A DNA stretch of 64,000 nt from positions 1-64,000 of the forward strand of contig CALUZC010000002.1 in the NCBI GenBank assembly GCA_944325215.1, given 5' to 3'. This document shows positions 115 through 34,514 of the stretch, piece by piece. A program made the position numbers and the translations under genes. Below the pieces are notes generated by a model. It was not told where the DNA came from. It did not search any database and was given only the letters and a program-made list of their open reading frames with translations. The DNA is from an uncultured Mucispirillum sp. GTDB taxonomy: Bacteria > Chrysiogenota > Deferribacteres > Deferribacterales > Mucispirillaceae. Positions within the stretch are counted from its first letter, which is position 1, and every line of letters begins with the position of its first letter.

Positions 115-188
115 TGCCCCTGACAGGAATTGAACCTGTGACCTGCGGATTAGGAATCCGTCGCTCTATCCAACTGAGCTACAGAGGC
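115..188 (-). tRNA. tRNA-Arg (anticodon CCT)
   Basis: On the - strand the sequence folds as a full cloverleaf: acceptor stem GCCTCTG/CAGGGGC with wobble, D-arm GCTC/GAGC, anticodon loop TTCCTAA giving anticodon CCT, and a TTCAATT T-loop. CCA is not encoded. The gene is intact and is the attachment target of the integrated element. Its 5' half, from anticodon loop outward, is duplicated at 34183-34223. Because the element lies on the 5' side of the gene, the promoter now driving this tRNA must come from the element. Confidence 0.95.
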
Positions 189-191
189 AAA
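148..191. repeat. attL core, 44-bp direct repeat
   Basis: Identical to 34183-34226. It spans the tRNA-Arg 5' half, from within the anticodon arm to three bases beyond the acceptor 5' end. The intact tRNA is at this end. Confidence 0.93.
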
Positions 192-3998: not shown

Positions 3999-4193
3999 AA
4001 GCCACCTCCTAATTTTGTCCGAACGGAAAATCCGAATGGATAAAAGGAAAGTGACTAACCACAAAACAGTCGCACTGTGTTCCGTAAATAATCTATCATC
4101 ATATCTTAAAAATAACAAGTCAAAAAAAATTATATTAATCCATATTTTAGTGTTCAGTTGCCACCCGTATATAAAAATACAGGTGATAAAACT

Positions 4194-5150: not shown

Positions 5151-5168
5151 TTTTCAATGGAGGAAAAT

Positions 5169-5513
5169 ATGAAAACAAAAATCACATTAGTAATTTTAAT
5201 GATACTTGTATCAAGTTCACTTGCTTATGCAGGTGGAGCATTACCTTTTGAGAGTGGCTTATCAAAAATAAGTAACTCCCTTTCAGGGCCTGTAGCAATT
5301 AGTATTGCTATAATAGCTTTTGCTGCAGCTGGTATTATGTATGTATTTAATCCTGATGCAACAGCACTAATTAAAGGATTAATAGGTTTATGTATTGCTT
5401 TAGGTGTTATGTTTGGTGGTAAAGTATTTGTTGATCTGATAGCAAAACCATCATCATCAGGCAATATTATACCTGTTTCATATGTTACAAAAGAGCAAAT
5501 AAAACATGAATAA
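5169..5513 (+). CDS. trbC: TrbC, conjugative pilin (VirB2-like)
   Basis: 114 aa prepilin. A signal peptide ends near SSLAYAG, followed by two hydrophobic helices typical of TrbC/VirB2. ATG 5169 is chosen because GGAGG lies just before it, within an upstream in-frame ATG at 5157. In RP4, TrbC is cut and cyclised by the TraF peptidase; a TraF homologue is present at 25562-26089, so cyclic pilin is likely here too. The translation-start region is almost identical to that of the PKD lipoprotein gene at 14457. Confidence 0.9.
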   Translation: MKTKITLVILMILVSSSLAYAGGALPFESGLSKISNSLSGPVAISIAIIAFAAAGIMYVFNPDATALIKGLIGLCIALGVMFGGKVFVDLIAKPSSSGNIIPVSYVTKEQIKHE

Positions 5514-5799
5514 CAATAGAATATATAGATTTGGTTGGAGACCTGTATTGTTTATGGGTGGTGATAGAGAATTGGTATTATTAACTGCGTTATTCTCTGG
5601 AATGATAATGTTTTATAGCTTTAATTTAATTCTATTTATAATAGCATTTATACTATTTACATTATCATTAAAAGCATTTCAACTAATGGCAAAAGCAGAC
5701 CCTTTAATGAAAAATGTTTATTTAAGACATACTAAATATAAGTCTATATATTTAGCAAAAAGTACCCCTTTTGTTATTAGTAATAAAATATATAAGTAG
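5506..5799 (+). CDS. trbD: TrbD (VirB3-like) membrane protein
   Basis: 97 aa. Inner-membrane component of the mating-pair apparatus. It has a short positively charged N-terminus (YRFGWRPVLFMGGDREL) and two adjacent hydrophobic helices around residues 25-60, as in TrbD/VirB3. The start overlaps the trbC end by 8 bp and the gene precedes the VirB4-type ATPase, the invariant family order. Confidence 0.9.
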   Translation: MNNNRIYRFGWRPVLFMGGDRELVLLTALFSGMIMFYSFNLILFIIAFILFTLSLKAFQLMAKADPLMKNVYLRHTKYKSIYLAKSTPFVISNKIYK

Positions 5800-5813
5800 G
5801 TGTAATAATTAAT

Positions 5814-8420: not shown

Positions 8421-9145
8421 TGGAAATTTTTAAAAAAATACAAAAAAAGCATCTTACATTTAGTGAAAGTGCAAATTTTAATGCAAAAAATGTGTGGAAT
8501 TCAAGGATTAGTGAATTTTTTTGGAAATATAGGGCTTGGCAAATTTTAACTATATTATCAATGCTTATAACATTAGTTGCTATTAGTGGAATTATTTACA
8601 TAGGAAGTCAGTCAAAATTCATACCCTATATAGTTGAAGTGAATAAGTTAGGAGAAACTGTTGTTGTAGGTAAAGCACATACAGGAACTATTAAAGATCC
8701 ACGAATAATAAGAGCAAAAGTAGCAAATTTTATTGATACTTTAAGACTTGTATCTATAGATCCTGCACTTCAAAGAAACTATATATATAAGACATATGAT
8801 AGTTTAAGGAGAGGTGATCCAGCATTTGAAAAAGCTAACATCTTTTATCAGGATAATAAAACAAATCCATTTATTCTAGGAGAATCAATAAGCAGGAATG
8901 TAGAAATTACAAGCTTAAATAGACAAACTGATGAAACATATCAAATTGATTGGCTAGAAAAAACATATGATAAGAAAGGCATTCTTTTATATGTAAAAGA
9001 ATTTAGAGCATTGGTTACAGTATTTCTATCCCCTATTGATGTTGAAAGTGTAGATAAATTAATAGAGAACCCACTTGGAATATTTATAAAAGATTATAAC
9101 ATATCAGAATTAAAAACATCTGATAATATTATGATAAAGGAGTAA
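8417..9145 (+). CDS. trbF: TrbF (VirB8-like) bridge protein
   Basis: 242 aa. Bitopic inner-membrane assembly factor: about 40 cytoplasmic residues, one transmembrane helix (about 42-65), then a periplasmic VirB8/NTF2-like domain beginning FIPYIVEVNKLGE. It overlaps trbE by 4 bp and touches trbG. Recognition rests on domain architecture, the PYIVEVD-like motif and operon position. Confidence 0.93.
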   Translation: MMEIFKKIQKKHLTFSESANFNAKNVWNSRISEFFWKYRAWQILTILSMLITLVAISGIIYIGSQSKFIPYIVEVNKLGETVVVGKAHTGTIKDPRIIRAKVANFIDTLRLVSIDPALQRNYIYKTYDSLRRGDPAFEKANIFYQDNKTNPFILGESISRNVEITSLNRQTDETYQIDWLEKTYDKKGILLYVKEFRALVTVFLSPIDVESVDKLIENPLGIFIKDYNISELKTSDNIMIKE

Positions 9146-9150
9146 TGCTT

Positions 9151-10020
9151 ATGAAACTAAAAATATTATTATTAATTATGACTATAATATTGTATAAAAA
9201 TACTTATGCCCAAGATATAAGTGAAATATTTAATGAAAGCAGTAGTGATATAATTCTTACAAAAAATGAAAAAAAGGCTATTTCAATTATTAAACAGTGG
9301 CAAAATGGCAATAAAGTCTCTCCTATTACAAGAGGCAATAATGGTGAAATTGAACTTATATATGGGTTATCACAACCTCAAATATTAACTGCTATATTAC
9401 AAGTTACTGATATTCAATTTGAGCAGGGTGAATCAATTATATCTGTTCATATAGGTGATACAGCACGCTGGTTAGTTGAACATATACAGACTAATACTAT
9501 CAATGGTAATCAGGATCATTTGATTATTAAACCAAAAGAGAGTGGTTTACTTACTTCACTAATTGTTGTTACAGATAAAAGAACTTACCATATACAACTA
9601 AAGAGTAATGAGAAGTTATATTATCCTATGGTAAAATTTCATTACCCACAGAGCCTTATTATAAAATCAACCAAAAATAAAAATAATATTAAGGAAAAAA
9701 CATTATCTATGAAAGATATAGTAACTGGCTCTTATTTAAAAGATTTAGATTTTAATTATATCATAAAAGGTAATGCAAAATTTAAACCTGTTAGAGTATA
9801 TAACAATGGTGTTAAAACAATTATAGAATTACCTAGAAGTATAAATGCAAGCAATATACCTATACTTATGACTTTAGAACAAGAAAGTAAAAATCCTGTA
9901 ATTGTAAACTATAGATATCAAAATAATAAATTTATAGTAGATGCAGTATTTGAGAAAGCTATTTTAATTTCTGGAGTTGGTATTAAACAGAAAAAAATTA
10001 CTATAAGTAGGGGTAAATAA
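9151..10020 (+). CDS. trbG: TrbG (VirB9-like) outer-membrane core protein
   Basis: 289 aa. Periplasmic subunit of the outer-membrane core complex. A signal peptide ends near NTYAQD; the body has the VirB9 features IGDTARWLVE and HLIIKP and a C-terminal beta-domain. I chose ATG 9151, 8 nt after AAGGAG; ATG 9145 would be only 2 nt away. The same small leader pattern (AGG...TAATGCTTATGAAA) precedes trbL. Confidence 0.92.
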   Translation: MKLKILLLIMTIILYKNTYAQDISEIFNESSSDIILTKNEKKAISIIKQWQNGNKVSPITRGNNGEIELIYGLSQPQILTAILQVTDIQFEQGESIISVHIGDTARWLVEHIQTNTINGNQDHLIIKPKESGLLTSLIVVTDKRTYHIQLKSNEKLYYPMVKFHYPQSLIIKSTKNKNNIKEKTLSMKDIVTGSYLKDLDFNYIIKGNAKFKPVRVYNNGVKTIIELPRSINASNIPILMTLEQESKNPVIVNYRYQNNKFIVDAVFEKAILISGVGIKQKKITISRGK

Positions 10021-10021
10021 A

Positions 10022-10468
10022 ATGAAAAAATTAACTATTTTATTACTAATATTATTAGCATCATGCAGTACGAAAACTACAAATATATTAAATGTTAATG
10101 TTGATAATAGTATTTATGAAGTAATATCAAAAGATACTGTAGAACTGATAAAAAATAACATCAATATTAATAATTCAAACATAATAATAAATAGCAAACA
10201 AAATAATTTTCTTAATATTTTAGAACAAACATTAAGAATTGCTGGTTATTCAGTATTTGTTTCTACTGAACATATAATGTTAGAACAAGATGATTATAAT
10301 TTAAACTATATATTAGATGTAATTAAAAAAACTAAAGTTGAAAAAAATAAAGTTATAACTGTAAGATATAGCCTTTCATTAAAAGATAAAAGTTGTTCTA
10401 AACTTTATGAAATTAACAATAATAATGAAATATTGTATAAATCAGAATGGTACTGTTTAGGAGAATAA
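10022..10468 (+). CDS. trbH: TrbH-position lipoprotein (VirB7-like)
   Basis: 148 aa lipoprotein with signal peptide and lipobox LLASC at residues 11-15. It sits between the VirB9 and VirB10 homologues, exactly where RP4 has trbH, so a stabilising lipoprotein of the outer-membrane core is likely. The sequence is Asn/Lys/Ile-rich and I see no other motif. Name is by position and lipobox. Confidence 0.78.
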   Translation: MKKLTILLLILLASCSTKTTNILNVNVDNSIYEVISKDTVELIKNNININNSNIIINSKQNNFLNILEQTLRIAGYSVFVSTEHIMLEQDDYNLNYILDVIKKTKVEKNKVITVRYSLSLKDKSCSKLYEINNNNEILYKSEWYCLGE

Positions 10469-10469
10469 T

Positions 10470-11852
10470 ATGTCTTTTTTAGATGGTCGACTAACAGAAA
10501 TTGTAAAAAATATCAATGTAAAAAAACTAACTAATACACCAAAATTAGCAATATTAGGATTTTTGATTATAGTTTTTGGCCTGACATTAATTGTAATATT
10601 AAATGCAGATAAAAGAACAAAAGAAGAAGTAATCACCAGCGATATTAAAGTCGAAGAAACTGATGAATATGATGATAAATATGTAAAAAATCAGGCAGAT
10701 TTATTTGGATATAAAAAAAATGAAGATAATAAATTACCAAATAATCTTAAAGAAGAAGAATATAATAAAATATTTGCCAATGATCCTAGCAACAAAAATA
10801 GTGAAAAAAATAGTGAAAATGAGTTTCTAAAAGAATTTGGTTTATCTGATGAAGAAGTAAGTCAGGCTGAAAACTCACTCAACATATTACAAGGTGAACT
10901 CGATAATATCTCTAAATCTATACCAGAATTACCTGTTCTTGTATTATTAGACAAAGAAACAAATATGTATAGTATTTCTGGTATGAGTGAACGATTTTCC
11001 AATGGCAAAAAGAAAGAAGATAAATATTTAACAATAGAACAAAGGCAAGCTCTAGCTGAACAAGAGCTTATAGATGAAAATACAAAAAGACAAGAATTGT
11101 CAAATGCTTTAAAAAGTTCCACTTTAATTGTTAATATTGAAAGTAAAAATCCTGTAACCAAAAAAGACACTAATAATTCTAATACTGATATAAATAATAA
11201 AAATACTAATAAAGATATATTGGACAATGATTTTAGATTATACAAAAGTATTGAAGATAGCGTTAAGGGTGAAATTAAAACAGGCTTTGTTATACCTGCA
11301 ACATTATTAACACAAATAGAAAGTGAATTAAAAGGTATGGTTGTAGGGCAAGTAAGACAAAATGTATATGATACAGCTACAGGTGAAATGCTGCTTATTC
11401 CACAAGGCACAAAATTAGTAGGAGATTATCAAAGTGATATTCAATATGGTGCAAAAAGAATTTTTGTTAATTGGAAAAGATTAATATTCCCAAATGGTAC
11501 ATCTCTTGATATTGGTATGATGCCCGGAGCAGATATGAGTGGAACATCTGGTTTTCATGACATATATAATAATCATTTTTGGGAAATGTTTGGAAACTCT
11601 TTATTATTCTCTTTCGTTTTAGCTGGAGTTAATTTAAGTCAAACACCTGATTTATATAATCAATTTTTACCGTTATATTCAAGAGGAGCAGCAACTTCTC
11701 TAAGTGAAGGGCTTGGTCAATCATTAGGAGAAACAATGTCTCAAATGATTAGAAAAAATCTAAATATTGCCCCAGATATTACTATCAGATCTGGTTATCT
11801 ATTTAATGTTATGATAACTAAAGATATTGTCTTACCTGAATATTCAGATTAA
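10470..11852 (+). CDS. trbI: TrbI (VirB10-like) channel protein
   Basis: 460 aa. Spans the envelope and links inner and outer membranes. A cytoplasmic N-terminus is followed by one transmembrane helix (about 25-45), a long Asp/Asn/Lys-rich periplasmic linker (50-260), and the conserved VirB10 beta-barrel domain: VIPATLLTQIESE, GQVRQNVYDTATG, LLIPQGTKLVGDY and a hydrophobic antenna helix region (FGNSLLFSFVLAGV). Two bases separate it from the lipoprotein gene. Confidence 0.95.
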   Translation: MSFLDGRLTEIVKNINVKKLTNTPKLAILGFLIIVFGLTLIVILNADKRTKEEVITSDIKVEETDEYDDKYVKNQADLFGYKKNEDNKLPNNLKEEEYNKIFANDPSNKNSEKNSENEFLKEFGLSDEEVSQAENSLNILQGELDNISKSIPELPVLVLLDKETNMYSISGMSERFSNGKKKEDKYLTIEQRQALAEQELIDENTKRQELSNALKSSTLIVNIESKNPVTKKDTNNSNTDINNKNTNKDILDNDFRLYKSIEDSVKGEIKTGFVIPATLLTQIESELKGMVVGQVRQNVYDTATGEMLLIPQGTKLVGDYQSDIQYGAKRIFVNWKRLIFPNGTSLDIGMMPGADMSGTSGFHDIYNNHFWEMFGNSLLFSFVLAGVNLSQTPDLYNQFLPLYSRGAATSLSEGLGQSLGETMSQMIRKNLNIAPDITIRSGYLFNVMITKDIVLPEYSD

Positions 11853-11891
11853 GTCAGTATTATTATTTATAATAAAAAAAGGAGTATAATT

Positions 11892-12662
11892 ATGATTAAA
11901 AAACTTTTATGTATTTTATTTTTCGGTTTATTTACAAACGGACATGCTCAAATTGTAGTTGAAGATGCTTCTAACTTATTTCAAAATACAGCAACAGCAG
12001 TTAATACTGCAGCAACATTAGCAGAAATGATAAAACAGTACAAACTACTTGCTCAAGAATATGAAATGATGGTTAAAAATATGGCAGCTCCATACTTTTG
12101 GGTATTTAAAGAGGTAAATGATTTTGAAGATAATATTGAATATTACAAAGAAAAATATTCAAAATATACTGATAAAGCAGCATGGGAAGCTCATTTTGCA
12201 TCATATCTTGATCCAGATACTTATTCAACTAGTCCATGTTTTAAACTTGGTGGTTGTTCAAAAGAAGAAAATGCTAGAATAAGAGCTAATCGTGAAGCTA
12301 TGATTAAAAATGCTGGTGAAACAAGTAAAAAGTTCGTTGAGTCTTTCAGGGAATTATCTAATGAATATAAAAAAAGAACCAACATGTTAAATAAAGTTGC
12401 AGAAAATGCAAAAAGAGCTGAAGGAAATCTTCAATCACAAGCAGCTACTAATGATTATTTATATTTATTAAATTCTAATACGGAAGTATTGATAAAAAAA
12501 ATGGATGCATTCAGTGAAAGCTATAATAATATGCTTATGCTTAAATTAGAAGAAGATGCGATGAAAAAAGCAAAAAATCAAAGAGTGCTTGATGAATCTC
12601 TCAAAGTGAAAGTACCAAATGATAATCGCTTATATTTTACTGATATTAGTTCAAAAAGGTAA
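11892..12662 (+). CDS. trbJ: TrbJ (VirB5-like) minor pilus protein
   Basis: 256 aa secreted protein. The signal peptide ends near NGHAQ; the mature part is helical with the TrbJ-type start VVEDASNLFQNTATAVN and a long coiled coil. One cysteine pair (C..LGGC) may form a disulfide. In other systems VirB5/TrbJ sits at the pilus tip. It has a good AAAGGAG ribosome site. The next gene starts at its stop codon, so RP4's trbK (entry exclusion), which lies between trbJ and trbL there, is absent. Confidence 0.9.
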   Translation: MIKKLLCILFFGLFTNGHAQIVVEDASNLFQNTATAVNTAATLAEMIKQYKLLAQEYEMMVKNMAAPYFWVFKEVNDFEDNIEYYKEKYSKYTDKAAWEAHFASYLDPDTYSTSPCFKLGGCSKEENARIRANREAMIKNAGETSKKFVESFRELSNEYKKRTNMLNKVAENAKRAEGNLQSQAATNDYLYLLNSNTEVLIKKMDAFSESYNNMLMLKLEEDAMKKAKNQRVLDESLKVKVPNDNRLYFTDISSKR

Positions 12663-12667
12663 TGCTT

Positions 12668-13918
12668 ATGAAAAAGTATATACCATTAACTCTTTTATTT
12701 ATTATATTTATTCCTGATTTATCATATTCACAAACAACGATTAATTTTGATATTGTTGAAAAAATCAGAGAACAAGTTGAATTTAATTCTAATATGTGGA
12801 TAGGTCATATCAAAAATGCAGCTTTAAATTTATTTTATATACTGGCTACAATTAGTTTTATAGGTAAATTCATTATTGATATTATCTCAAAAGGTGAAAT
12901 TGATACTAAAGATAGTATTGGATATACAATAAGGTTCATATTAACTACTGGATTTTTTTACTTTCTACTTGATAATGGAGTTGAACTTGCTACTTCTATT
13001 GTATCATCATTCACCATTCTTGGAGAAAGAGCTGTTGGTTTAAAGCCTACTTTTTCTAATTTACTAAAAGTAGGCTTTGATTTACTATCTCTAGGTGATA
13101 ATCTTGGATGGAGCGATTTTGAAATAAAACTACCTTTCTTTGTTTTATCTGTTCTTACAATCGTTTTTTTAATGATTATTATGGCAAATCTTATAATCGA
13201 AGAAATAGCAGCAGCCATTATGATATATGTAGGCTTTTTTGTGTTAGCTTTTGGTGGTATGGATTATACTAAAGAAAGTGCTATAAATTACTTTAAAGCT
13301 ATATTAGGAATATCATTAAAAATACTTACAATTATTTTAATAATGGGTATTACTGTTAATATAATTAACTCATTAGAATTTGATTTCAAGATAAACACTA
13401 AAAATGAGATTGATGGTGCAATTGTAATATATCAAGCTTTAACTGTATTTCTAACAGTATTCTTTTTAGCTCTACTGTCATTGAAAATACCTGATGCAAT
13501 CTCTAATTTAGTAAGTAATGCATGGGGTAATATGTCAGGATTAACTCTTATGGGTGGCATTTCTCTTGCACAAAATACAGCACAAAAAATATCCAGTGTT
13601 ATATCAGGTTCTGCTAATGCTGGTAAAAATGCAATAACTGGGTATAAAGATTACAATAAAAATAAAGAGATTGGTGAAAAAAAGAAAGAAGCAGAAAACA
13701 GAGGGGAAGATACATCTTTAAACCCAATGTATAATAAACAAAAGAATGCAGCTGGTAAAGCTTACTATGGAGGTAAAGTTTTTGCTGCTGTATCTGATAA
13801 ACTTAGCAGTGTATTTGGAAATTCTAATGAAATAACAAACAATCCTAGTAACCAAAATGATGCCACGACCAATACAGAGGCTAATAAAGATAAGGAGGTT
13901 AAAAAAAATGAAAAATAA
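12668..13918 (+). CDS. trbL: TrbL (VirB6-like) polytopic membrane protein
   Basis: 416 aa. A signal-like N-terminus is followed by at least five hydrophobic segments (about 45-65, 90-115, 160-200, 210-235, 250-275) and then a long hydrophilic Asn/Lys-rich tail of about 120 residues. This is the TrbL/VirB6 layout for the inner-membrane channel. ATG 12668 is chosen over 12662 from spacing to AAAAGG. The end overlaps the transglycosylase gene by 11 bp. Confidence 0.92.
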   Translation: MKKYIPLTLLFIIFIPDLSYSQTTINFDIVEKIREQVEFNSNMWIGHIKNAALNLFYILATISFIGKFIIDIISKGEIDTKDSIGYTIRFILTTGFFYFLLDNGVELATSIVSSFTILGERAVGLKPTFSNLLKVGFDLLSLGDNLGWSDFEIKLPFFVLSVLTIVFLMIIMANLIIEEIAAAIMIYVGFFVLAFGGMDYTKESAINYFKAILGISLKILTIILIMGITVNIINSLEFDFKINTKNEIDGAIVIYQALTVFLTVFFLALLSLKIPDAISNLVSNAWGNMSGLTLMGGISLAQNTAQKISSVISGSANAGKNAITGYKDYNKNKEIGEKKKEAENRGEDTSLNPMYNKQKNAAGKAYYGGKVFAAVSDKLSSVFGNSNEITNNPSNQNDATTNTEANKDKEVKKNEK

Positions 13919-14438
13919 ATTAATAATTTTAATAATATTAATAGCTTGTAACCATACTTTATATGCAAAAGAATTTATACCATATAAAGAAAACAGAATG
14001 AGTATTGAAAAAAAACTATCCTGTTCTATTGCTGCTAGTGTGAAATTCAATGTTCCAATTGATGTATTACTTGCTATATCAAGTATAGAAAATGGCAATA
14101 TTGATACCATTTCAAAAAATAATAATAATACTTATGATTATGGTGTTATGCAAATAAATTCTGATTATATTAAAGATCTTAACAACAAATATAATCTTAA
14201 CTTAAAATACCAAGATTTTTTACAAGATGACTGTTTTTCTTTTGAAGTAGCAGCGTTTAAAATAAAAGAACATATTAAAAATGATTCTGGTGATTTACTA
14301 ACAAGAATTGCTATGTATCACTCCAAAACATATAAATTTAATGAAATATACAAGCAGAAATTAATATATTACTGTAAATATTGGAGTGATTACTTAAATG
14401 ATAAAGGATATAAATTATATCTATTTTCAGAGATATAA
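13908..14438 (+). CDS. Lytic transglycosylase of the transfer apparatus
   Basis: 176 aa SLT-fold enzyme that opens peptidoglycan for the secretion channel (VirB1 role; in RP4 the similar TrbN). N-terminal signal to about residue 20; C14 in LIAC could also act as a lipobox. The catalytic glutamate is probably E61 (AISSIENGN), followed by YDYGVMQIN, the standard SLT signature. A strong AAGGAGG site inside the trbL tail decides the start; a longer upstream frame is not supported. Confidence 0.9.
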   Translation: MKNKLIILIILIACNHTLYAKEFIPYKENRMSIEKKLSCSIAASVKFNVPIDVLLAISSIENGNIDTISKNNNNTYDYGVMQINSDYIKDLNNKYNLNLKYQDFLQDDCFSFEVAAFKIKEHIKNDSGDLLTRIAMYHSKTYKFNEIYKQKLIYYCKYWSDYLNDKGYKLYLFSEI

Positions 14439-14456
14439 TAGTTTATGGAGGAATAT

Positions 14457-15965
14457 ATGAAAACAAAATTTTTAGTAGTTATTTTACTTCTTTGTGTATC
14501 AATATTTACACTTATAGCAGGTTGTGCTGATGGAACAGATAGTGTTGATTTTGTCTATTCTCCAAATTCAACAGATATTAAAACAATTAATTTTAAAGCC
14601 CTTGGAAAGAGTGATTTTGGTACTTTTGAGTATTCATGGAATTTTGGTGATGGTAAAAAAAGTACCGGTGAAGAAGTGAGTCATACTTTTGAGAAATTTG
14701 GAAAGTATAATGTGATTTTAACTGCAACTATTGAAGAAAGCAATATTGTTACTCAAGTTCAAAAAGAAATTGAGATTGAAGTGCCTATTATTTCTAACAT
14801 TAATATTACAGGAAAAGCAAGCTCAAAAGGAGCAAATATTATTGAATATGTAATAAGTAGTGTGTCAGATTATGATAATGAAATTGAATATAATTGGCAA
14901 TTCGATGATGGAACAACAGCAACTGGTCAGATGGTAAGTAGAGTTATGTCAAGCTGGCCTGATGGAGATAATTTTGGTAATATTACTGATAGGATCATGG
15001 TATCAGTATATATTCCAAGTTTAGATTATACATTTAAAAGTAATGAGCTTTACAATGTTACAATAGAAAAACCAAAAATTAATAATTTTGATATTAACTG
15101 CACAAATGAAGGTACTGCAGGTGAGCGTATATTTAATTGTGATGTAAGAAAGAATGGAGTTAATCCTACTGCTACAGTTGGTAGGCTAACTTATGAATGG
15201 ATATTTAATGGTGAAGTCCGTAGTGGTGATACTCAAACATTTACTTTAACACAAAATAATTATGATTATCCTGTTTATGTTACAGCAACTATTGATGGTA
15301 CTAATATATCTGAAACCAGAAAAGCAACAATTAATGTTCCTATAGATAAAGATGATATCAATTTTAATTGCTCTACTGCTATTGTTAATGATAATCATGA
15401 AGATGCACTTAAAATAAAATGTCAACCACAATATAATAAAGCAACTTTTCTTAACCCATCAATTAATTGGCACATGGGAGATGATTCTTTAAATTTAGAA
15501 TCTACAGGAAATGCAGTAATTGAACATATTTATAAACAAGCTGGTATTTATAATATAACAATGGAATTTGTAGCTGAAAATAATCCAGAACCTATTGCTA
15601 TTTCAAAAAAGCAAACTGTTTTGGTAAACTTATATACAAGCACAAGTTTTGATAAAAATACAAATGCTGGAACACATTCATGTAGTAATGGTGCAATTAG
15701 GACATATAGAGTAGGCAGAGTTTTTTTAAATAATTTTAATTTATTTAGACAAGATGATTTTGATATTTATAGTAGTTTTTCATCTGGTAACTTTAACTGT
15801 GAAGGTCAAAGTGGAGGGTGGAACAAGAATACAGTTAATGTCTGGGATGCAGCTGGTTCAAATTTTGGAACATTCTGGGGCGACTGGGATCAACACGGTT
15901 CTTTTATATTATGCCCTAAAGGTGTAAGTAAAGACTCACAGGAATGTATTAAAAGCAGTTTTTAA
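14457..15965 (+). CDS. PKD-repeat surface lipoprotein
   Basis: 502 aa. Lipoprotein signal with lipobox LIAGC. About four PKD/Ig-like beta repeats follow; the clearest carries YSWNFGDG and HTFEKFGKYNV, later ones degenerate to NWQFDDG, YEWIFNG and NWHMGDD. The last ~95 residues form a different domain with several cysteines. Last gene of the trb operon, closed by the terminator at 15970. PKD repeats usually mediate surface contacts, so adhesion between mating cells or entry exclusion are possible roles; both are inference. Its translation start region copies that of trbC. Confidence 0.8.
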   Translation: MKTKFLVVILLLCVSIFTLIAGCADGTDSVDFVYSPNSTDIKTINFKALGKSDFGTFEYSWNFGDGKKSTGEEVSHTFEKFGKYNVILTATIEESNIVTQVQKEIEIEVPIISNINITGKASSKGANIIEYVISSVSDYDNEIEYNWQFDDGTTATGQMVSRVMSSWPDGDNFGNITDRIMVSVYIPSLDYTFKSNELYNVTIEKPKINNFDINCTNEGTAGERIFNCDVRKNGVNPTATVGRLTYEWIFNGEVRSGDTQTFTLTQNNYDYPVYVTATIDGTNISETRKATINVPIDKDDINFNCSTAIVNDNHEDALKIKCQPQYNKATFLNPSINWHMGDDSLNLESTGNAVIEHIYKQAGIYNITMEFVAENNPEPIAISKKQTVLVNLYTSTSFDKNTNAGTHSCSNGAIRTYRVGRVFLNNFNLFRQDDFDIYSSFSSGNFNCEGQSGGWNKNTVNVWDAAGSNFGTFWGDWDQHGSFILCPKGVSKDSQECIKSSF

Positions 15966-25561: not shown

Positions 25562-26089
25562 TTATAAATTAATAATTAGTCTTACTTCTTTTTTTATCTG
25601 GTTTTTACTAACTATTCCAAAATACCTGCTATCATAAGAATATTTATTATAATCTGATAACATAAAGTATTCATCAGCTTCCAAAATAAATTCAATATCT
25701 TTATTATATGCTTTATTTTTTAAAATGATTTCAGTATTTAATATTAATTGCCCATTAATATATACACCATTATCTTTAATAATAACTTTATCATAGGGTA
25801 AACCTAATGCTTTTTTTAAATATTTTGGTGTTCTACCGCAAGATTTATCAAGTCCAAGCCAGAATCCATTTTGTTCTGCAAATTTCATATATTCATTATA
25901 TTCAGGGCAGAAAATGTATAACTTTCCCCTTTCTATATCTTTAAAATTCCTGTTGAAATATAATCCAACAGGAAAAGAATTTGAGTAATTTATTGTAAAA
26001 AAAGAGAAAGCTATATTTAAAATTAATATTAATACTCCAATAAATAAAAGATATTTAATCAGCCTTATCAGTATCTGATATTTTTTCAT
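25562..26089 (-). CDS. traF: TraF, S26-family pilin maturation peptidase
   Basis: 175 aa. Membrane-anchored serine peptidase: one N-terminal helix (10-32), nucleophile S38 in SNSFPVGLY, general-base Lys at 92/93 before LGLPYDKV, and the DSRYFG box (153-158). In RP4 TraF removes the C-terminus of TrbC and cyclises the pilin. The gene overlaps the traG end by 35 bp. Confidence 0.93.
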   Translation of the reverse strand: MKKYQILIRLIKYLLFIGVLILILNIAFSFFTINYSNSFPVGLYFNRNFKDIERGKLYIFCPEYNEYMKFAEQNGFWLGLDKSCGRTPKYLKKALGLPYDKVIIKDNGVYINGQLILNTEIILKNKAYNKDIEFILEADEYFMLSDYNKYSYDSRYFGIVSKNQIKKEVRLIINL

Positions 26090-27953
26090 TTTCTTGTTCC
26101 TGCACTTCTTCTTTTTTTAAATTTTTTGGTTTAAGCTTATCAAGCACTCCTATTTTATCAGATTCTTTTGGTGCTGGAATACTAGCACGATAAGAAAATA
26201 CAGGGTCTTGAAAATATAAAGCTTGAACACCTTTAATTGCAGGATAACCAGCAACAAATATAAGCATATCACCTGCCCTTGTGATTTCACCTTTGGCATT
26301 TTTATCCGCACCTCTTAATCGCATACACTCATCAGGAGTTAAAAGATTTCTTTTTGTGTGTTGATAGCTTTTTGAATAATTTTTATTACTCAATAAACCA
26401 CCACTTGATGATACTGATATTTGTTCATCTACAATAGTAGTTTCACCTGTCATTTTAGATAAATATTCTGCTGTTTCGTGTTTATTTGGTGCATATGCAT
26501 TTTGTATATGGCAGTTAGAAGTTATACTCTCATTTTTACCATATTTATCTTGCAGCTGTGCTAAATCCTGCACTATTAAATATCCTTTAATACCATAACC
26601 TGCCATATATGCTAATGCTTTCTGCACTTCATCCATTTTCCCCAAAGATGGAAATTCATCTAACATTAAAAGCATTCTATGTTTATAGCTACCAGCACCA
26701 CGAATAGCATTATATTTTTTTGTATCTTTACCTTGTAGAAATCTACCTGCCTTTTCAAGAATAGAATAATCTTTAAAATTTTCACTTTGAAAAAATCTAA
26801 ATTCCGATACATTCTTTCTTATAAGCATATTAACTAACAATCTAAATAGTGGGCTTATTCTTGTTTGGTCTGATGGTTGAACCACAATATATAAAGATAC
26901 TGGTGTATCGCTATTCATAATATCATATACAGAAAAATCGGAAGTATTTGTATTTGCAGCAACTATTGGGTCTCTGTATAGTGCCAGCTCTGATTTTGCT
27001 GTTGATACAATACTTCCTGCTTCATTTTCTGGCTTATCCTTCATGTCCTGCCCTACCTGTCTAGCTACTTGATTATCAGATTTACTCATAGCTTCCCACA
27101 GGTTTTGTAGTGGCAATTCAGGGTCTGAAAGCATTCTATCAAGATATGAAAGGCTGACCTGCCCTTTTTCTTGTTTTTCTTTATCGTTAATAAGATAAAG
27201 AATACAACCAGTTAAAAGAGAATAAGCAGTTTTTACCCAGTGGTCATCAAGCCCTTTACCCATAGGGTCTACAATTAAAAGTGCTATACTTTGAGCATCT
27301 GATACTTCATTATCTCCCTTTCTTATTTCAAGTAATGGATTCCACTTTACAGATTTTTCTACCGCTGGTTCAAATTTAAGAACTTTATTATTTAATTCAT
27401 TATGTCTGTAACCTGCCGTCATAGCCCATAATTCACCTTTAATATCTGTTGCAACCAGCGAATGTTTCCAATTAACAAGAGATGGCACAATTAAGCCAAC
27501 ACCTTTACCTGAACGAGTAGGAGCATATGTTAATATATGCTCTGGTCCATTATGAATTAAAGTATATTTTTTTGGTTTTCTTAAAAATCTTTTTTCCTCA
27601 AAAGCACCAACAATTACACCCTCATTAGATAATAAGCCCATCTGTTTTATATCATTAATATCTGCCCATCTAGCTGAACCATGCAGTGTCTTATTAGCTT
27701 TTGATTTACCACGATTAATAATTAATGCTGTTAATACTACACCAAAACACAGCACTGGCAGCATGTAAAAAAATGATTTATTTACTAACTCATAACCTGC
27801 TGTGCCATGTGTTTTAAATAGCCAATCAATAGATTTCCAAAAATGATTGTATTCAATTATCCCTTTTAGCTGGTAGACAATATATATTGTAACAGCTTGA
27901 AAATATAAAATAATTGAACCAAAAAATACAAATAATCCTGTAAATGTTTTCAT
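26055..27953 (-). CDS. traG: TraG, VirD4-type coupling protein
   Basis: 632 aa. Brings the relaxase-DNA complex to the secretion channel. Two N-terminal membrane helices (about 5-28 and 60-80), Walker A PTRSGKGV (145-152), Walker B MLDEFPSLGKMD (D432/E433) and the QDLAQL segment are all present. Length is typical for IncP TraG. The gap to traI is 3 bp. Confidence 0.95.
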   Translation of the reverse strand: MKTFTGLFVFFGSIILYFQAVTIYIVYQLKGIIEYNHFWKSIDWLFKTHGTAGYELVNKSFFYMLPVLCFGVVLTALIINRGKSKANKTLHGSARWADINDIKQMGLLSNEGVIVGAFEEKRFLRKPKKYTLIHNGPEHILTYAPTRSGKGVGLIVPSLVNWKHSLVATDIKGELWAMTAGYRHNELNNKVLKFEPAVEKSVKWNPLLEIRKGDNEVSDAQSIALLIVDPMGKGLDDHWVKTAYSLLTGCILYLINDKEKQEKGQVSLSYLDRMLSDPELPLQNLWEAMSKSDNQVARQVGQDMKDKPENEAGSIVSTAKSELALYRDPIVAANTNTSDFSVYDIMNSDTPVSLYIVVQPSDQTRISPLFRLLVNMLIRKNVSEFRFFQSENFKDYSILEKAGRFLQGKDTKKYNAIRGAGSYKHRMLLMLDEFPSLGKMDEVQKALAYMAGYGIKGYLIVQDLAQLQDKYGKNESITSNCHIQNAYAPNKHETAEYLSKMTGETTIVDEQISVSSSGGLLSNKNYSKSYQHTKRNLLTPDECMRLRGADKNAKGEITRAGDMLIFVAGYPAIKGVQALYFQDPVFSYRASIPAPKESDKIGVLDKLKPKNLKKEEVQEQENEKISDTDKAD

Positions 27954-27956
27954 ACA

Positions 27957-29918
27957 TTACCTCTCTATTCCTTTATTTTTATCATTTGTCTTTTGTTGTT
28001 CTTTTTCTTTTACTAGATATGTTTTTGATACATAAATACTATTATCGTTATCTTTTTTGTATAAATAGAATTTTTGACCATTATATTCTTTGGTGGATAT
28101 TCTGTTATATGAGTTATCAAGGTTTGATAGTTCTTTAAAAGTAATTTTAGTCTGTTCTTTATTTTCAATAAAAGATTCTATATCATAGCTATCTTTTATT
28201 GGAGTATTAACAGATACAGTATCGCCTTTTTTATACTGCTTTAATAAAGTATAATCTTCTTTCACTGGCTCTTTAATATATACTGTATTGCTAATATTTG
28301 ATTTAAATTTTATTAAAAATTTATCATTATATTTTTCATATCCTTGATAAATATATTCCTGTTCTTTACCATCAAATTTAGCAAAATTTACTATTTTACT
28401 ATTCCTTTCATTAATATATGAAATAAGGTTATCCTGCTTTAAAATTTTAGCAGCTAAAATTTTTTCATTTAGCTCTTTATCTTTAAAAGTAATATCAATA
28501 TTATGAGTCGCTATAATATCTATTACTTTATTTTTAAACTCATCTGTTCCATTTAATGTATCTGGTGTAATGTTATTAGCTTTTAATATTTCAACAGCTT
28601 TTTTGATATTATTATATTTTGATGTTAGAAAAATTGAATTGCTTGTAGCTTTCAGCTTATTATTTAAAATATATGTGCCGTTTTTTGTTATTTTTAAAGC
28701 ACTGTTTTTAAGTTCTTTAAAATCACCTTTAATATAATTGATACGGCTTTCTTTTCTTTTATTTAAAACAAGTTCTGCTTTTTCATTAGTTAGTGCCTGC
28801 TGCTGTAGCCAAGCATCATAAGTGTAATATTTGTATCTATCATTTATTTTTTTTATTTCTTTTTTTCGCTCTTCTCTTAATTTTTTAAGTTTTGCTTTTG
28901 CTATAGCTTTTTTATTCATTTTGATTAATATTCTATCAAGCTCACTACTACCAGTCATTCTGCTTAAATTATCTATTATATCACCAGAATATTTAGCAGC
29001 ATCCATGTATTCATTTTTAACAACCTGCTTTTCCTGCTTTGACTTTATTTTTCTACTTGTATTTATAAAGTCATACTGCTCTTTTAAAGATAAATCTTGA
29101 TACCTTTGATATGAATTTTGAATATTATTTAAAGATTTTGACGGTTCAAATTTACCATACTTTTTTTCAAGTGAATTTAAAGAATATTCCCTTTTAACTG
29201 CACTTGCCTTTATATTTATTTTATCATCTGTTAAATTTTTAAATACTGCACCACTGCCATATTTTCTATACTCAATACCATTTTCTTTTAACTTATCATG
29301 TAAATCCTGCCATGATTTACAATCTGATAAATCAATACTCTCTACATAACTTTTAAAACTTATCTGTGTAGGTCTACTGTCAATATCATTAGCAGCAGAG
29401 CAGGTATTCTCATTGGATTTTTCATTAGAATGTGTTTGATTTAGATTATATTTGATTTCTAGTTCTTTAGCTTTTTTTGATAAAGTTTTATATGGATAAT
29501 AAGGCTCATGAATGGTATATTTTTCTGGGTTTATTTTATTTATTGCTATATGCATATGCAGGTTATCTGTATCATCATGAATAACACTTAATCTTTGGTG
29601 GTCTTTAAAACCTAAACTTTCTATAAATTCATTAGAAATATTTTTTAAAGTTTCAATATCTGGTCGTTCGTCTACACCAAAAGAAACTATTAAATGATAT
29701 GTTTTGTCTGATTTTGCATTACTCATTGACTGCACTGATTCTACATCTTCAATAAATAAATCTAAATCATTCATATCATAAATATCATCAGGCTCTATCC
29801 AAGCACCAACATTGCGAATATTTATATCCGATTCCACTTGCTCATTAGTTATATATTCTGTCAATCTTTTAAAAGATGATTTGATAGATTTATCTAATTT
29901 TGCCACTTTTACTATCAT
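27957..29918 (-). CDS. traI: TraI, MOBP-type relaxase
   Basis: 653 aa. Nicks oriT and pilots the strand into the recipient. Y22 (RLTEYITN) is the likely nucleophile; motif III is HDDTDNLHMHIAIN with H114, H121 and H123 binding metal. The N-terminal 300 residues are the relaxase domain; the rest is Lys-rich helical sequence with a later beta-rich segment. An ICE palindrome lies in the C-terminal part and codes for ILAAKIL. The extreme C-terminus DKNKGIER recurs in the VapD-like protein. Confidence 0.94.
   Translation of the reverse strand: MIVKVAKLDKSIKSSFKRLTEYITNEQVESDINIRNVGAWIEPDDIYDMNDLDLFIEDVESVQSMSNAKSDKTYHLIVSFGVDERPDIETLKNISNEFIESLGFKDHQRLSVIHDDTDNLHMHIAINKINPEKYTIHEPYYPYKTLSKKAKELEIKYNLNQTHSNEKSNENTCSAANDIDSRPTQISFKSYVESIDLSDCKSWQDLHDKLKENGIEYRKYGSGAVFKNLTDDKINIKASAVKREYSLNSLEKKYGKFEPSKSLNNIQNSYQRYQDLSLKEQYDFINTSRKIKSKQEKQVVKNEYMDAAKYSGDIIDNLSRMTGSSELDRILIKMNKKAIAKAKLKKLREERKKEIKKINDRYKYYTYDAWLQQQALTNEKAELVLNKRKESRINYIKGDFKELKNSALKITKNGTYILNNKLKATSNSIFLTSKYNNIKKAVEILKANNITPDTLNGTDEFKNKVIDIIATHNIDITFKDKELNEKILAAKILKQDNLISYINERNSKIVNFAKFDGKEQEYIYQGYEKYNDKFLIKFKSNISNTVYIKEPVKEDYTLLKQYKKGDTVSVNTPIKDSYDIESFIENKEQTKITFKELSNLDNSYNRISTKEYNGQKFYLYKKDNDNSIYVSKTYLVKEKEQQKTNDKNKGIER
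28441..28463. repeat. ICE palindrome copy 5 (inside traI)
   Basis: AAAATTTTAGC-A-GCTAAAATTTT, perfect 11-nt arms. It lies in the traI coding frame and encodes KILAAKIL. Confidence 0.85.
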
Positions 29919-31052: not shown

Positions 31053-31838
31053 ATGTCTGAAACAGAAAACAAAAAATTAAAAAACTTTCACTTTATTTTG
31101 CAGGGAAAAGGTGGAGTAGGAAAAACAACTTGTGCGTCCTTTATTGCACAATATTTAAAAGACCGCCAGCAAAAAGAATATCTTGCAATAGACACAGACC
31201 AAGTAAATGCCAGTTTTGCTAGCTTTAAAGCATTAAATGTGGAAGCACTAAATATTATGGAAAACAATCAAATACTGCCTCGTGGCTGGGATACACTCAT
31301 TGAAAAAATAATAAACAGTGATAAATCAAATATTATTATAGATAATGGTGCCAGCTCATTTGTGCCACTAATAGCATATGCTATAGAAAATGATATGGTA
31401 GATTTACTTACATCAGAAGAAAACAGCTATACAGGTAATGTTTTTATACATGTAGTAATAGCTGGTGGTGAAGGACTAGCTCATACGCTAGCAGGGTTAA
31501 ATATGATATGTGAAAAATTTAATCAAGACAATGTAATGATTGTGGTGTGGTTAAACTCTTATTTAGGAAATATTGAACAGGCTGGTAAGCATTTTCAAGA
31601 TATGGATGAATACAAAAAAAATAAATCAAGAATATTTGCAGTAATCAAAATTCCAATATATACAAGTGATACCTATGGAAAAGATATTTCTGATATGCTT
31701 GCAAAAAATAGAACATTATCTGAAATGATAGTATCTTCATCTGTAAATATTGCTTCAAGACACAGATATAATAAAGTGCAAAAAGAAATATTTGCTTTAT
31801 TAGATAATATTAGCGATATTTTTGATGAATATGAATAA
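31053..31838 (+). CDS. traL: TraL, ParA-like transfer ATPase
   Basis: 261 aa. Walker A QGKGGVGKTT (17-26), AIDTDQVNASF, KALNVEALNIM, IIDNGASSFVPL, VVWLNSYLG and TYGKDISDML all follow RP4 TraL closely. The exact role of TraL in IncP transfer is not settled; it is a deviant-Walker ATPase encoded beside oriT. It has an AAGGAGT site and lies 19 bp after traK. Confidence 0.93.
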   Translation: MSETENKKLKNFHFILQGKGGVGKTTCASFIAQYLKDRQQKEYLAIDTDQVNASFASFKALNVEALNIMENNQILPRGWDTLIEKIINSDKSNIIIDNGASSFVPLIAYAIENDMVDLLTSEENSYTGNVFIHVVIAGGEGLAHTLAGLNMICEKFNQDNVMIVVWLNSYLGNIEQAGKHFQDMDEYKKNKSRIFAVIKIPIYTSDTYGKDISDMLAKNRTLSEMIVSSSVNIASRHRYNKVQKEIFALLDNISDIFDEYE

Positions 31839-31863
31839 TAGATTAAATTCAATCAACAATCAA

Positions 31864-31890
31864 GAGGGCTTACTTTAAGCCTTCTTTTTT
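31864..31890 (+). terminator. Terminator after traL
   Basis: GAGGGCTT/AAGCCTTC (8 bp with one G-T pair), followed by six T residues. Confidence 0.8.
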
Positions 31891-31899
31891 AAAAAAAAA

Positions 31900-32105
31900 C
31901 GGCGGTCAAAAATTCTACTCTGCTTAAACTATCTAACTTTATCTAAAATTTTAAACACTGCTTTATATAAATTTTAATTTTAAAGATTATCTACTATTTT
32001 TTTTAAAAAACATATACCAGCAAATAATCATATATGCAGTATTAAAAATAACTTTAACTATCACACATCATAAAACTTGAATGTGTGATATACTCTTTTT
32101 TTTAA
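31900..32105 (+). ncRNA. Candidate small RNA, copy 1 of a ~205-bp repeat
   Basis: This gene-free segment is repeated at 34892-35096 with roughly 85-90% identity by eye. It begins at a GGCGGT motif and ends in a terminator: TATCACACAT/ATGTGTGATA (10-bp stem) followed by TACTC and a T-run. No reading frame is conserved between copies. A conserved noncoding unit ending in a terminator suggests a regulatory RNA, or alternatively an untranslated leader left from a lost gene. Confidence 0.45.
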
Positions 32106-32425
32106 TTTAAAAAATTCTTCCTTCTTTTTTTCTTTGGCGTTATAAAACATTAAAAATATAATAAAATACCTTTATCTTTATATATTCTTATAATACTGTA
32201 TTAAAAATTGTAATCAGTGTATGAATTTTTGCGGAGTGTTTAGATAGATATACCAGAGAAAAAATATTTATTTTAAATTTTCAATGAATTTTCTACACAA
32301 TTTCCACACAATATACCGGGAATAAAATTTGTAATTTAAATTTTGCTTGATATACTGTAATTTTTGATAAATATAAGAGAGTATAGTATTATATTGCAGT
32401 GTGCTGGTTAGTGTTTCATCAGAAT
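32106..32425. other. Gene-free AT-rich region before the sigma fusion gene end
   Basis: About 320 bp without a credible gene on either strand. It includes two 10-bp direct repeats TC(T/C)ACACAAT (32292 and 32303), which loosely resemble DnaA boxes. Nothing else is clear. Confidence 0.4.
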
Positions 32426-33982
32426 TTAACTGTTATTTATTAGATATCTTATTTCATTTTCCATATCTGGTGGAAAATGTTCTTTTAAAAATAAAATCGC
32501 TTTTTTATATATTCTTGCAATAAGCGATTCTGAAAGGTTTAACTTATTTCCTATTTCTTTAAAAGTCAAGCTATGTCCATCATAGCCTATGTAATACTTG
32601 ATGATAAGCCTGCTTCTGTCATCTAAAATACTAAGCAGCTTATTTATGCCTGCATTTTTATCAAAATCAATCTCTAACGGCTTTTCCTCAACTTTACATA
32701 TAGATAAGTCTAAATTATCAAACTCATACTCATAATTGATTATAGAGTTTTTATTTTCAAATGTATCTATTAATGACCTTTTTTGATACATATAATCTTT
32801 TAATCTATATTTAATTGTTGATATAGTAAATTTATCATTATCATAATTCTTTTTAAAATATTCATAAGCTGCTTTTAATGCCTCTTGATAAAAGTCGTCA
32901 AAATCAATATCAGTTACACCAGCAAGGGAAGAGTAATACCATTTTTGTAATGCACCTTGTAAACTATCTATATAATTTTGTGCTTTTGCCCAAATTTCAA
33001 TATCAGATACTACTTTATTCTGATTAGGTTTATCTATACTAGCATTATCACTATCTAATAAGTTATTTTTTAACTTATATATAAATCTTTTTGCCTTTCT
33101 TTTTGAAAGTGCTTTTGAAAGATTACATAATTTATCATAAGATTTTTTTATTAATGCTGGTGTTGTAAACTCTTTAAAATCAGAATAATTTAATGTGATA
33201 AAAGAAAAGATATGCTTTAAAACTAGTGGATTATAGCCATCATTAAGCATTCTTTTAATAGTCATTTTATGACTTTTAAGCTGGGTTTGAGAAAAAGAAA
33301 TATTTACCTGCTTTAAATATTCTTGATATATGCTAAATATATCAGCAGTAAATCTGTTTATATCATCAGCACTGTAATTATTTGTGATTTTAGATACATT
33401 TATTTTATAGTTATAAACACCATAAACAAGCTCAGCAGATAAGTAATCATCAGCTATAAGCTGCTTTAAAATTAAACGAATAGAACTTTCACTGTTATTA
33501 ACACCCAGCATTGATTTTAATTTGCTGGCAGATATCCTTATCTCATTAACACCTGATAGTGCATATGTTCTAAATTTGTTTAATAAAGCAGCTGTAAGAT
33601 AATGAAAATCATACTTTAAATCAATTCCCTCTATTAGTGCTAATATATCCTGATTATCAGAAATTATTTTATCAGTAGGTTCATATAAATCTTGGTTGTA
33701 TATTAAATTGTTACCTTTATATTTGCGAATTAGACCTAATTCAATTAATTTTTCTAACTTTACTCTTATTGTCTGTTTTGTTTTTTCATTTAACGACAGC
33801 CGTTTTATATCATTCAAAGTTAGTTTTTCTTTTTTAGCAAAAATTATTTGATTAAGAAGAACGGCAAGTTCTAAATCCTGTGTCAATTCTAGCAAATAAT
33901 CCCGCACTGGTATTTTTACAGAATTATATAAATCTTGACTATGAAAATGAATTTGTTTTTCTCTTATTTCAGTGCTTACCAT
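32426..33982 (-). CDS. Winged-helix / sigma-70 fusion protein
   Basis: 518 aa. The N-terminal half holds winged-helix domains: residues 28-100 (LLELTQDLELAVLLNQIIF, then a recognition helix and LIELGLIRKYKG) resemble replication/regulatory wHTH proteins of plasmids and phages, and 125-200 looks like a second one. The C-terminal half matches sigma-70 factors: region 2 at about 355-405 (DFDDFYQEALKAAYEYF..FTISTIKYRLKDYM) and region 4 at about 448-503 (DDRSRLIIKYYIGYDG..LTFKEIGNKLNLSESLIARI). I know no named family with this order. Likely a regulator that directs RNA polymerase to ICE promoters; a replication role is possible. The upstream region has three GGCGGT half-sites. Confidence 0.8.
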   Translation of the reverse strand: MVSTEIREKQIHFHSQDLYNSVKIPVRDYLLELTQDLELAVLLNQIIFAKKEKLTLNDIKRLSLNEKTKQTIRVKLEKLIELGLIRKYKGNNLIYNQDLYEPTDKIISDNQDILALIEGIDLKYDFHYLTAALLNKFRTYALSGVNEIRISASKLKSMLGVNNSESSIRLILKQLIADDYLSAELVYGVYNYKINVSKITNNYSADDINRFTADIFSIYQEYLKQVNISFSQTQLKSHKMTIKRMLNDGYNPLVLKHIFSFITLNYSDFKEFTTPALIKKSYDKLCNLSKALSKRKAKRFIYKLKNNLLDSDNASIDKPNQNKVVSDIEIWAKAQNYIDSLQGALQKWYYSSLAGVTDIDFDDFYQEALKAAYEYFKKNYDNDKFTISTIKYRLKDYMYQKRSLIDTFENKNSIINYEYEFDNLDLSICKVEEKPLEIDFDKNAGINKLLSILDDRSRLIIKYYIGYDGHSLTFKEIGNKLNLSESLIARIYKKAILFLKEHFPPDMENEIRYLINNS

Positions 33983-34182
33983 AAAGCACCGCCAATAAAG
34001 AAAAACGATAAATTATCTTGTTGAATGCACCGCCTATTAAATAATAGGCGGTAAAAAAAATTGCCGTTAGAAGCAGGAGAATATTTTTGGTTAGCTAGAA
34101 AAAATATATATATGCTTCTAACAAATATACATGGAATAATTACTATATATTATTCATGTATCTATATGCCACCTCTCTACCA
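33983..34182. promoter_or_regulatory. Right-end hairpin cluster upstream of the sigma fusion gene
   Basis: It contains the 24-bp palindrome ACCGCCTATTA/TAATAGGCGGT (34029-34052), with a third GCACCGCC half-site next to the start codon (33983). A 57-nt interrupted hairpin follows with arms GTTAGAAGCA/TGCTTCTAAC (34066-34122), then another, TACATG-AATAAT/ATTATTCATGTA (34128-34160). The first set may be an autoregulatory operator; the hairpins next to attR may bind integrase or host factors. Confidence 0.45.
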
Positions 34183-34226
34183 GATTAGGAATCCGTCGCT
34201 CTATCCAACTGAGCTACAGAGGCAAA
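34183..34226. repeat. attR core, 44-bp direct repeat
   Basis: Identical to 148-191. It contains only the 5' half of the tRNA-Arg gene, so it is not a functional tRNA. Confidence 0.93.
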
Positions 34227-34250
34227 TATTTCCCTGATTGAATTTATTTA

Positions 34251-34367
34251 TTAAGACTTGTCATAGATATTCTCCTTTTTATCATTTCTTATGCTTCTAT
34301 CTATAAAGCATAATTTATTAACTGCGTCAAGTTCTTTTTTTGAATTATGAGCTAGATGAGAGTTAAC
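34251..34367 (-). pseudogene. Remnant of a second integrase
   Basis: The - strand frame reads SHLAHNSKKELDAVNKLCFIDR, closely matching the C-terminus of the intact integrase (RYLANDGKKELDAINKLCFINR). The position of the catalytic Tyr is His here, and everything upstream is missing. The non-coding stretch to attR is also similar to the left end of the ICE, so this is the left tip of a related element inserted at the same site. Confidence 0.8.
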
Positions 34368-34514
34368 AACCACTTTTTTTATTTATTTTTTCGCAATGGT
34401 TTTTAGAATTTAACAATTAATCTATGAAAGCACAAAAACACTTGATAATTAAGCAATTTTATGATACAAATATTAATCAGCTGTAAAGCTGAAATAAACG
34501 AAGGAGGTTAAAGG

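Follow-up and report, generated by a model that had tools for sequence, protein, structure and literature searches.

Normally, a sigma factor finds its targets through its own regions 2 and 4. What role, then, is played by a sigma factor that is fused to a second DNA-binding part and encoded at the very edge of an integrated element? The question is raised by a 64,000-nucleotide stretch of DNA (the window) from Mucispirillum, a mouse-gut bacterium. Its minus strand holds an ORF of 518 aa with an ATG start (32426-33982), which encodes one intact protein; we name this Rep-like/sigma fusion gene RepSig. An earlier note on the same DNA had placed the gene at the right end of an ICE, had read its N-terminal half as winged helices of plasmid or phage type followed by sigma regions 2 and 4, and had proposed that the protein acts as a self-contained conjugation switch.

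The placement at an ICE right end was borne out. A 34.0-kb IncP-like ICE lies at tRNA-Arg and is bounded by 44-bp att repeats (Table 1); RepSig abuts the right att, beside which it sits reading inward. Integrase, att repeats at a tRNA gene, relaxase, coupling protein and T4SS are all present. From the left, the order is integrase, a TraM-like ORF (below cut-off), a ParB/KorB-like protein, ParA, the trb operon, a PKD-domain protein, an ArdC-Toprim protein, topoisomerase III, a TraF-like peptidase, TraG, TraI, TraJ, TraK, TraL and, at the right end, RepSig. The recognised IncP-type genes are trbB-E, traG, traI, traJ, traK and traL, and the same ICE occurs in genomes G040 and G041 (in the latter as the portion on the contig only). 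Several other features of the element were recorded in passing. The 925-aa protein encoded at 20107-22884 combines an N-terminal ArdC domain with zincin-like peptidase, DUF5710 and Toprim domains. Two palindromes with AAGCAGGTAT-N-ATACCTGCTT (18122-18142 and 18614-18648) stand beside small ORFs and are perhaps the operator of another regulator, and the palindrome GTGAATGTATATACATTCAC (30337-30356), kept in G040, lies between traJ and traK near the expected oriT. To the right of attR, the 3' remnant of an integrase (34227-34420) is followed at 34880-35100, outside the ICE, by an 89 % copy of a 211-bp part of the DNA block downstream of RepSig; judged from these remnants, 34227-35100 is a degenerate second element, the scar of an older one. 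A host tRNA promoter considered at 34300-34360 was dropped once the stretch proved homologous to the 3' end of the integrase.

Table 1. Coordinates of the features discussed. Positions are those of the window, except for the satellites, which lie on other contigs; residues are those of RepSig.
Feature	Position	Strand	Basis or remark
att repeat, left copy, inside intact tRNA-Arg(CCT) (114-189)	148..191	-	tRNA call and repeat comparison
Tyrosine integrase	257..1174	-	Domain match
trb operon (IncP-like T4SS), trbB first	4158..15965	+	Family matches
traG coupling protein and traI/MobP relaxase	26055..29918	-	Family match
traJ	29915-30295	-	Family match
traK	30341-31033	+	Family match
traL	31053..31838	+	Family match
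Non-coding block conserved 3' of RepSig, with an ACCGCC half-site (31901-31906) at its end	31855..32425	.	Candidate origin/control region
Sigma region 4	32474..32662	-	Residues about 441-503; PF04545, 1rio_H fold match
Sigma region 2, DDFYQEA segment	32774..32977	-	Residues about 336-403; TIGR02937, PHROG sigma models, fold
Helical middle domain with conserved SKRKAKR segment	33065..33370	-	Residues about 205-306; alignment and model
Winged helix 2, CRP/FNR-like	33383..33646	-	Residues about 113-200; predicted structure
Winged helix 1, MarR/MepR-like	33668..33916	-	Residues about 23-105; predicted structure
-10-like hexamer GATAAT (TACAAT in most relatives)	34012..34017	-	Leader comparison
Dyad ACCGCCTATTATTTAATAGGCGGT (H3), candidate autogenous operator over the -35 position	34029..34052	-	Leader alignment and genome scan
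Inverted repeat H2, 10-bp arms, 37-bp gap, covarying between elements	34066..34122	-	
Inverted repeat H1 next to att, covarying	34127..34161	-	
att repeat, right copy, 5' half of tRNA-Arg	34183..34226	-	Repeat comparison
Satellite of 6.5 kb at tRNA-Phe (G040, L024)	8104-8146 and 14638-14680		43-bp att repeat; five genes
Satellite of 5.3 kb (G040)			50-bp att repeat; split RepSig
Satellite of 9.7 kb (G044)			49-bp att repeat; with cargo

RepSig consists of two winged helices, a helical domain, sigma region 2 and sigma region 4, in that order. A frameshift or assembly artefact was ruled out, since the same order runs uninterrupted through 16 aligned full-length relatives (20 rows before four partial or split copies were excluded); one copy in G040 is truly split into two ORFs. 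Comparison of the C-terminal half with sigma folds had been set beforehand as a refutation test, and regions 2 and 4 match in both sequence and fold, in agreement with their earlier assignment to residues 355-405 and 448-503. The NCBIfam model TIGR02937 (sigma70-ECF) matches residues 358-502 with 49.3 bits against a cut-off of 42.9, Pfam Sigma70_r4 (PF04545) matches residues 449-500 with 34.1 bits against 24.1, and PHROG sigma models match from residue 335 or 357. In the full-length model, region 4 superimposes on SigA (1rio_H) with a Z of 11.3 and an rmsd of 0.9 Å over 60 aligned residues. SigA regions 2-4 reach a Z of about 10 against the full model with a whole-span rmsd of about 24 Å, so that only the separate domains fit; the domain arrangement of this model (pLDDT 70, pTM 0.36) is not trusted. 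Of these two regions, region 2 is the weaker; its QE pair is replaced in family f7, where the region is degenerate. Over ten pairs compared by the Nei-Gojobori method, dN/dS is 0-0.21 in the winged helices, 0.015-0.35 in the middle domain, 0.05-0.43 in region 2 (except for one pair at 1.18 with a dS of 0.03) and 0-0.29 in region 4, and reaches 0.98 in the linker loop. Both halves are thus under purifying selection while the linker loop is free. From its regions 2 and 4, RepSig is predicted to bind core RNA polymerase and to start transcription.

The N-terminal half matches no Pfam or NCBIfam model at its cut-off, and none of the Pfam replication families matched the window protein. AlphaFold2 modelling of residues 1-310 with 17 family sequences (pLDDT 83) yields two winged helices, as had been read from residues 28-200, and a helical domain extending to about residue 306. 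In this model, residues 27-115 resemble MarR/MepR (Z about 9) and residues 127-201 resemble CRP/FNR (best Z 10.4, rmsd 2.0, 69 aligned). Compared with predicted structures of viral proteins, the full RepSig model finds a phage replication initiator first (E 1e-5) and the N-terminal half finds one second (E 3e-5). The PHROG profiles lead to the same type of protein: replication initiation protein PHROG 270 is matched by 7 of the 17 N-half members (best E 4.7e-5), a DnaD-like helicase loader by six (best 0.042) and O-like initiators by a few, with matches that are weak and short (39 residues in one member). Weak as they are, these matches agree in direction, which suggests that the N-terminal half looks most like replication initiators; the plasmid or phage hint of the earlier note has become a likeness to these proteins in fold and in PHROG matches. 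A resemblance of the middle domain to the Phg_2220_C replisome organiser was considered and found no confirmation: PF09524 (Phg_2220_C) is absent from the lists for 16 members at E up to 10 and is carried by none of the 50 genomes of the phylum.

The same fusion recurs in tra clusters of a sister genus, in satellites and in other ICEs. A second copy, 55 % identical to that of the window, lies on contig C57 of the same genome. The fusion family is carried whole or in part by 12 of the 50 phylum genomes (the raw profile count was 15; G006, G007 and G025, with sigma region 4 only and E near 1e-3, were dropped), and a profile of the N-terminal half finds the same 12 in a sample of 384 genomes, in 4 of 318 genera. 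Within that sample, relatives of full length are confined to four genera, all of one phylum; the other genomes have none. In plasmid and phage collections, the window protein matched nothing more than short stretches of sigma region 4, plasmid searches with two further family members returned none, no relative was found among viral contigs, and a search of genome contigs gave two Mucispirillum loci. No description of a fusion of this kind was found in the open-access literature. Fragments of the N-terminal half also occur (L024:14994-15284, with short matches in G034, G035, G036, G037, G040 and G047) and are likely scars of lost elements.

Of 19 RepSig copies, 16 follow closely after a tRNA or tmRNA gene, whole or partial, that points the same way; two stand divergently next to tRNA-Leu, and one, in G031, has no called tRNA. 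On the G031 contig (L030), where there is no intact tRNA, the integrase lies directly upstream of RepSig, head to tail and in the same direction, possibly as an excised circle or a tandem copy. In the sister genus, RepSig heads an F-type-like tra cluster with a TrbC-like pilin and TraE, and a paralogue on the other side of tRNA-Leu points away from it. A ParB-like protein with a DGHTR motif is encoded there by a separate gene beside ParA. Near a ParB-like gene of one sister-genus element (L100) lies a 185-aa ORF, which we take to resemble the plasmid-segregation actins ParM/StbA. A second fusion, of sigma regions 2-4 followed by a ParB-like domain, was noticed at L029:3-1124 (-) and L030:5725-6930 (+); it lies directly downstream of RepSig in two f7 genomes and is full length in 2 of the 384 genomes. 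Its sigma part matches that of RepSig (hhalign probability 98.3, E 2.5e-14), and its ParB part is below the Pfam cut-off (PF02195 E 0.048 in P0002), with LIDGHTRLQA and its DGHTR motif read by eye. This fusion suggests that the sigma module was repeatedly attached to plasmid-maintenance proteins.

Satellites of 5-10 kb adjoining tRNA genes carry RepSig without a relaxase or T4SS, as judged by comparison with the proteins of the window ICE. The 6.5-kb satellite contains RepSig, traL, traK, traJ and integrase only, and the traJ/traK/traL module is the constant companion of RepSig in all Mucispirillum loci long enough to show it. For the proposal of a self-contained conjugation switch, the tie to conjugative elements thus stands, but the proposal proves too narrow, as RepSig is kept where there is neither T4SS nor relaxase. 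Because it is one of only five genes retained in such a satellite, its core task appears bound to the element and not only to tra operons; this task possibly concerns the element's own promoter, replication or excision. Since even the smallest satellites keep it, RepSig is probably the element's own on-switch. Our preferred reading, to which we give a probability of about 0.5, sees in RepSig a self-targeting sigma factor that the element carries as its switch.

The alternative that survives best would make RepSig the replication initiator of the excised element, whose sigma module delivers RNA polymerase to the origin, either to make primers or to activate the origin, with a transcription role that is secondary or autoregulatory only. 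In addition to the likeness of the N-terminal half to replication initiators, O-like and DnaD-like proteins, it is consistent with the presence of ParA and ParB in an ICE that has no other Rep-like gene among the ORFs scanned, with RepSig being the sole candidate initiator in the five-gene satellite, and with the attachment of the f7 sigma module to a ParB-like domain, another plasmid-maintenance protein. The DNA adjoining the gene also favours it. About 570 bp of non-coding DNA 3' of RepSig are kept in all eight elements compared at JC distances of 0.03-0.29, whereas some pairs show synonymous distances above 1 in several RepSig domains. However, no iteron array was recognised, DnaA-box-like stretches were seen by eye only, and the Pfam replication families are unmatched while the PHROG matches are short. 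We consider this alternative unlikely, though it deserves attention. As for the block itself, it differs by 10 % between G041a and the window, whose RepSig genes are 98 % alike, so recombination between elements is likely. An RNA element at this place was considered and rejected (fold z of -2.0 and -2.4 on the two strands, no covariation, no Rfam match); conserved DNA is the more likely nature of the block.

An inverted repeat stands upstream of the RepSig start codon in all 11 Mucispirillum copies, and in ten of these it is ACCGCCTATTATTTAATAGGCGGT; the split RepSig copy has a shortened, compensated dyad, ACCCCC..GGGGGT. A scan of 15 family genomes with up to three mismatches found ten copies of ACCGCCTATTATTTAATAGGCGGT, all perfect and all upstream of RepSig, and the reversed-pattern control found none. 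The dyad is centred 58.5 bp before the start codon, and the -10-like hexamer starts at -35 in 10 of 11 leaders, that of G000b having no -10-like match. In genus g1, the dyad centre lies 23.5 bp before the start of the -10-like TACAATTTA, and all four sister-genus leaders contain a different dyad, TTCGCTCC-N11-GGAGCGAA, centred at -55 with TACAATTTA at -31, a spacing of 24 bp. The dyad lacks TTGACA; if the hexamer is a -10, the dyad would cover the -35 position. Because no other place in the family genomes has ACCGCCTATTATTTAATAGGCGGT, we regard it as a probable autogenous site and treat it here as a candidate. The winged helix 2 segment LGVNNSESSIR is nearly invariant where this dyad is present and different where the dyad differs, and we infer that it is the recognition helix. 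The other two inverted repeats of the leader, H1 and H2, covary: 10 of 30 pairs are changed on both sides, giving 27 cells against 11.4 expected with none of 500 shuffles as high, and further pair types show no excess (17 against 18.2 in shuffles). Across 11 related sequences, this covariation supports pairing or dyad symmetry, whether in RNA or in DNA, and the leader folds better as RNA than its shuffles (z -4.99). H1 and H2 together (34066-34161) are a candidate terminator, recombination site or replication structure.

The earlier note had also proposed to look for one promoter motif common to trbB, traK, traG and RepSig. Such a motif is not supported: in the 15 family genomes the dyad is found only upstream of RepSig, and a comparison between two ICEs of the DNA separating parA from trbB and traJ from traK, by simple motif discovery with few relatives and with half-site plus -10 patterns, gave nothing convincing at tra promoters. 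An apparent second dyad upstream of trbB, a GGTGGT palindrome (3894-3926) followed by a T-run, was not conserved in G040 and was taken for a terminator. We therefore regard it as improbable that RepSig is a master activator of conjugation in the classical sense, a sigma factor serving every tra/trb promoter and, where a satellite encodes it, those of helper ICEs as well, even though RepSig heads tra clusters in the sister genus and satellites keep their own copy, as SGI1, in excerpts of its published account, keeps SgaCD beside the AcaCD of its helper (PMC7826253). About as improbable is the view that RepSig binds DNA as an autorepressor or maintenance regulator, its sigma part being a domesticated relic that has ceased to work with RNA polymerase. 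This view would suit a dyad that overlaps, like a repressor site, the -35 position of the RepSig promoter, the degenerate region 2 of f7 and the untrusted domain arrangement of the model, but sits poorly with regions 2 and 4 that are conserved under purifying selection, a TIGR02937 match above cut-off and a sigma module that recurs in the second fusion.

The self-targeting switch could work as follows. The winged helices would bind the dyad over the -35 position and sigma region 2 would read the -10 of the RepSig promoter, in which case RepSig would recruit core RNA polymerase to its own promoter and set up an autogenous positive feedback. Once the element is an excised circle, transcription from int would cross attP and continue directly into RepSig, so that excision could start the feedback loop; the int-RepSig order in G031 is the order predicted for the circle. 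While the element is integrated, read-through that enters from the host tRNA gene could be reduced by the covarying hairpins next to att. The least certain step would be the effects on tra expression, on the relaxosome genes traJ/K/L and possibly on replication from the conserved non-coding block. The dyad fits autorepression equally well; operators of iteron-plasmid Rep proteins serve autorepression. The -10 of RepSig is near the ordinary TATAAT and may be used by the housekeeping sigma. A dual function in replication and transcription is possible. We put forward with reserve, as a doubtful extension, an initiator that carries its own sigma factor: it would bind its control DNA and bring RNA polymerase there, so that self-transcription, transfer and replication form one switch set off by excision, with satellites in step with helper ICEs.

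Like the ECF sigma-70 factors (TIGR02937), RepSig has regions 2 and 4 joined by a variable linker, but it adds about 330 N-terminal residues (DNA-binding and helical) and is encoded at the att of mobile elements; no ECF family with such an N-terminal extension was found in Pfam, NCBIfam or PHROGs. Phage and plasmid initiators and helicase loaders (PHROG 270, O-like 678/391, DnaD-like 186) likewise have a winged-helix pair and a helical domain, whereas RepSig has a sigma factor fused at its C-terminus and matches no curated Pfam Rep family. IncP-type transfer systems share trb, TraG and TraI/MobP with the window ICE. IncP plasmids use TrfA for replication, and to our knowledge they have no such sigma fusion. 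By analogy, the satellite SGI1 appears to be the nearest functional analogue of the RepSig elements: excerpts of the published account give it its own activator SgaCD and RepA beside the AcaCD of the IncC helper, with excision, replication and transfer coupled (PMC7826253). In those excerpts the SGI1 activator, of the FlhDC family, and RepA are separate proteins (PMC7826253), whereas the sigma and Rep-like parts of RepSig form one chain; no FlhD/FlhC model is among the Pfam or NCBIfam matches of RepSig. Relaxase-less ('non-canonical') IMEs are already known and, in the sections of the source concerned with them, have an integrase and relaxosome accessory genes with no relaxase or T4SS (PMC5704250), as do the RepSig satellites; a RepSig satellite differs in having only five genes, one of them a sigma fusion. 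Excerpts of the Mucispirillum genome paper mention a T4SS in the vicinity of integrases and tRNA genes and do not speak of a sigma protein of this kind (PMC5285517).

What is new here is a mobile-element sigma-70 factor with a new architecture and an exclusive dyad at a fixed spacing from the -10. In RepSig, a sigma factor is physically tied to an initiator-like DNA binder of predicted specificity, and a family of integrative elements keeps no other cargo as persistently as this protein. Should the dyad be the target of RepSig, the protein, the dyad and the -10 would make up a private promoter system in few parts. RepSig therefore bears on how ICEs couple excision, replication and transfer, and on how relaxase-less satellites may keep step with their helpers.
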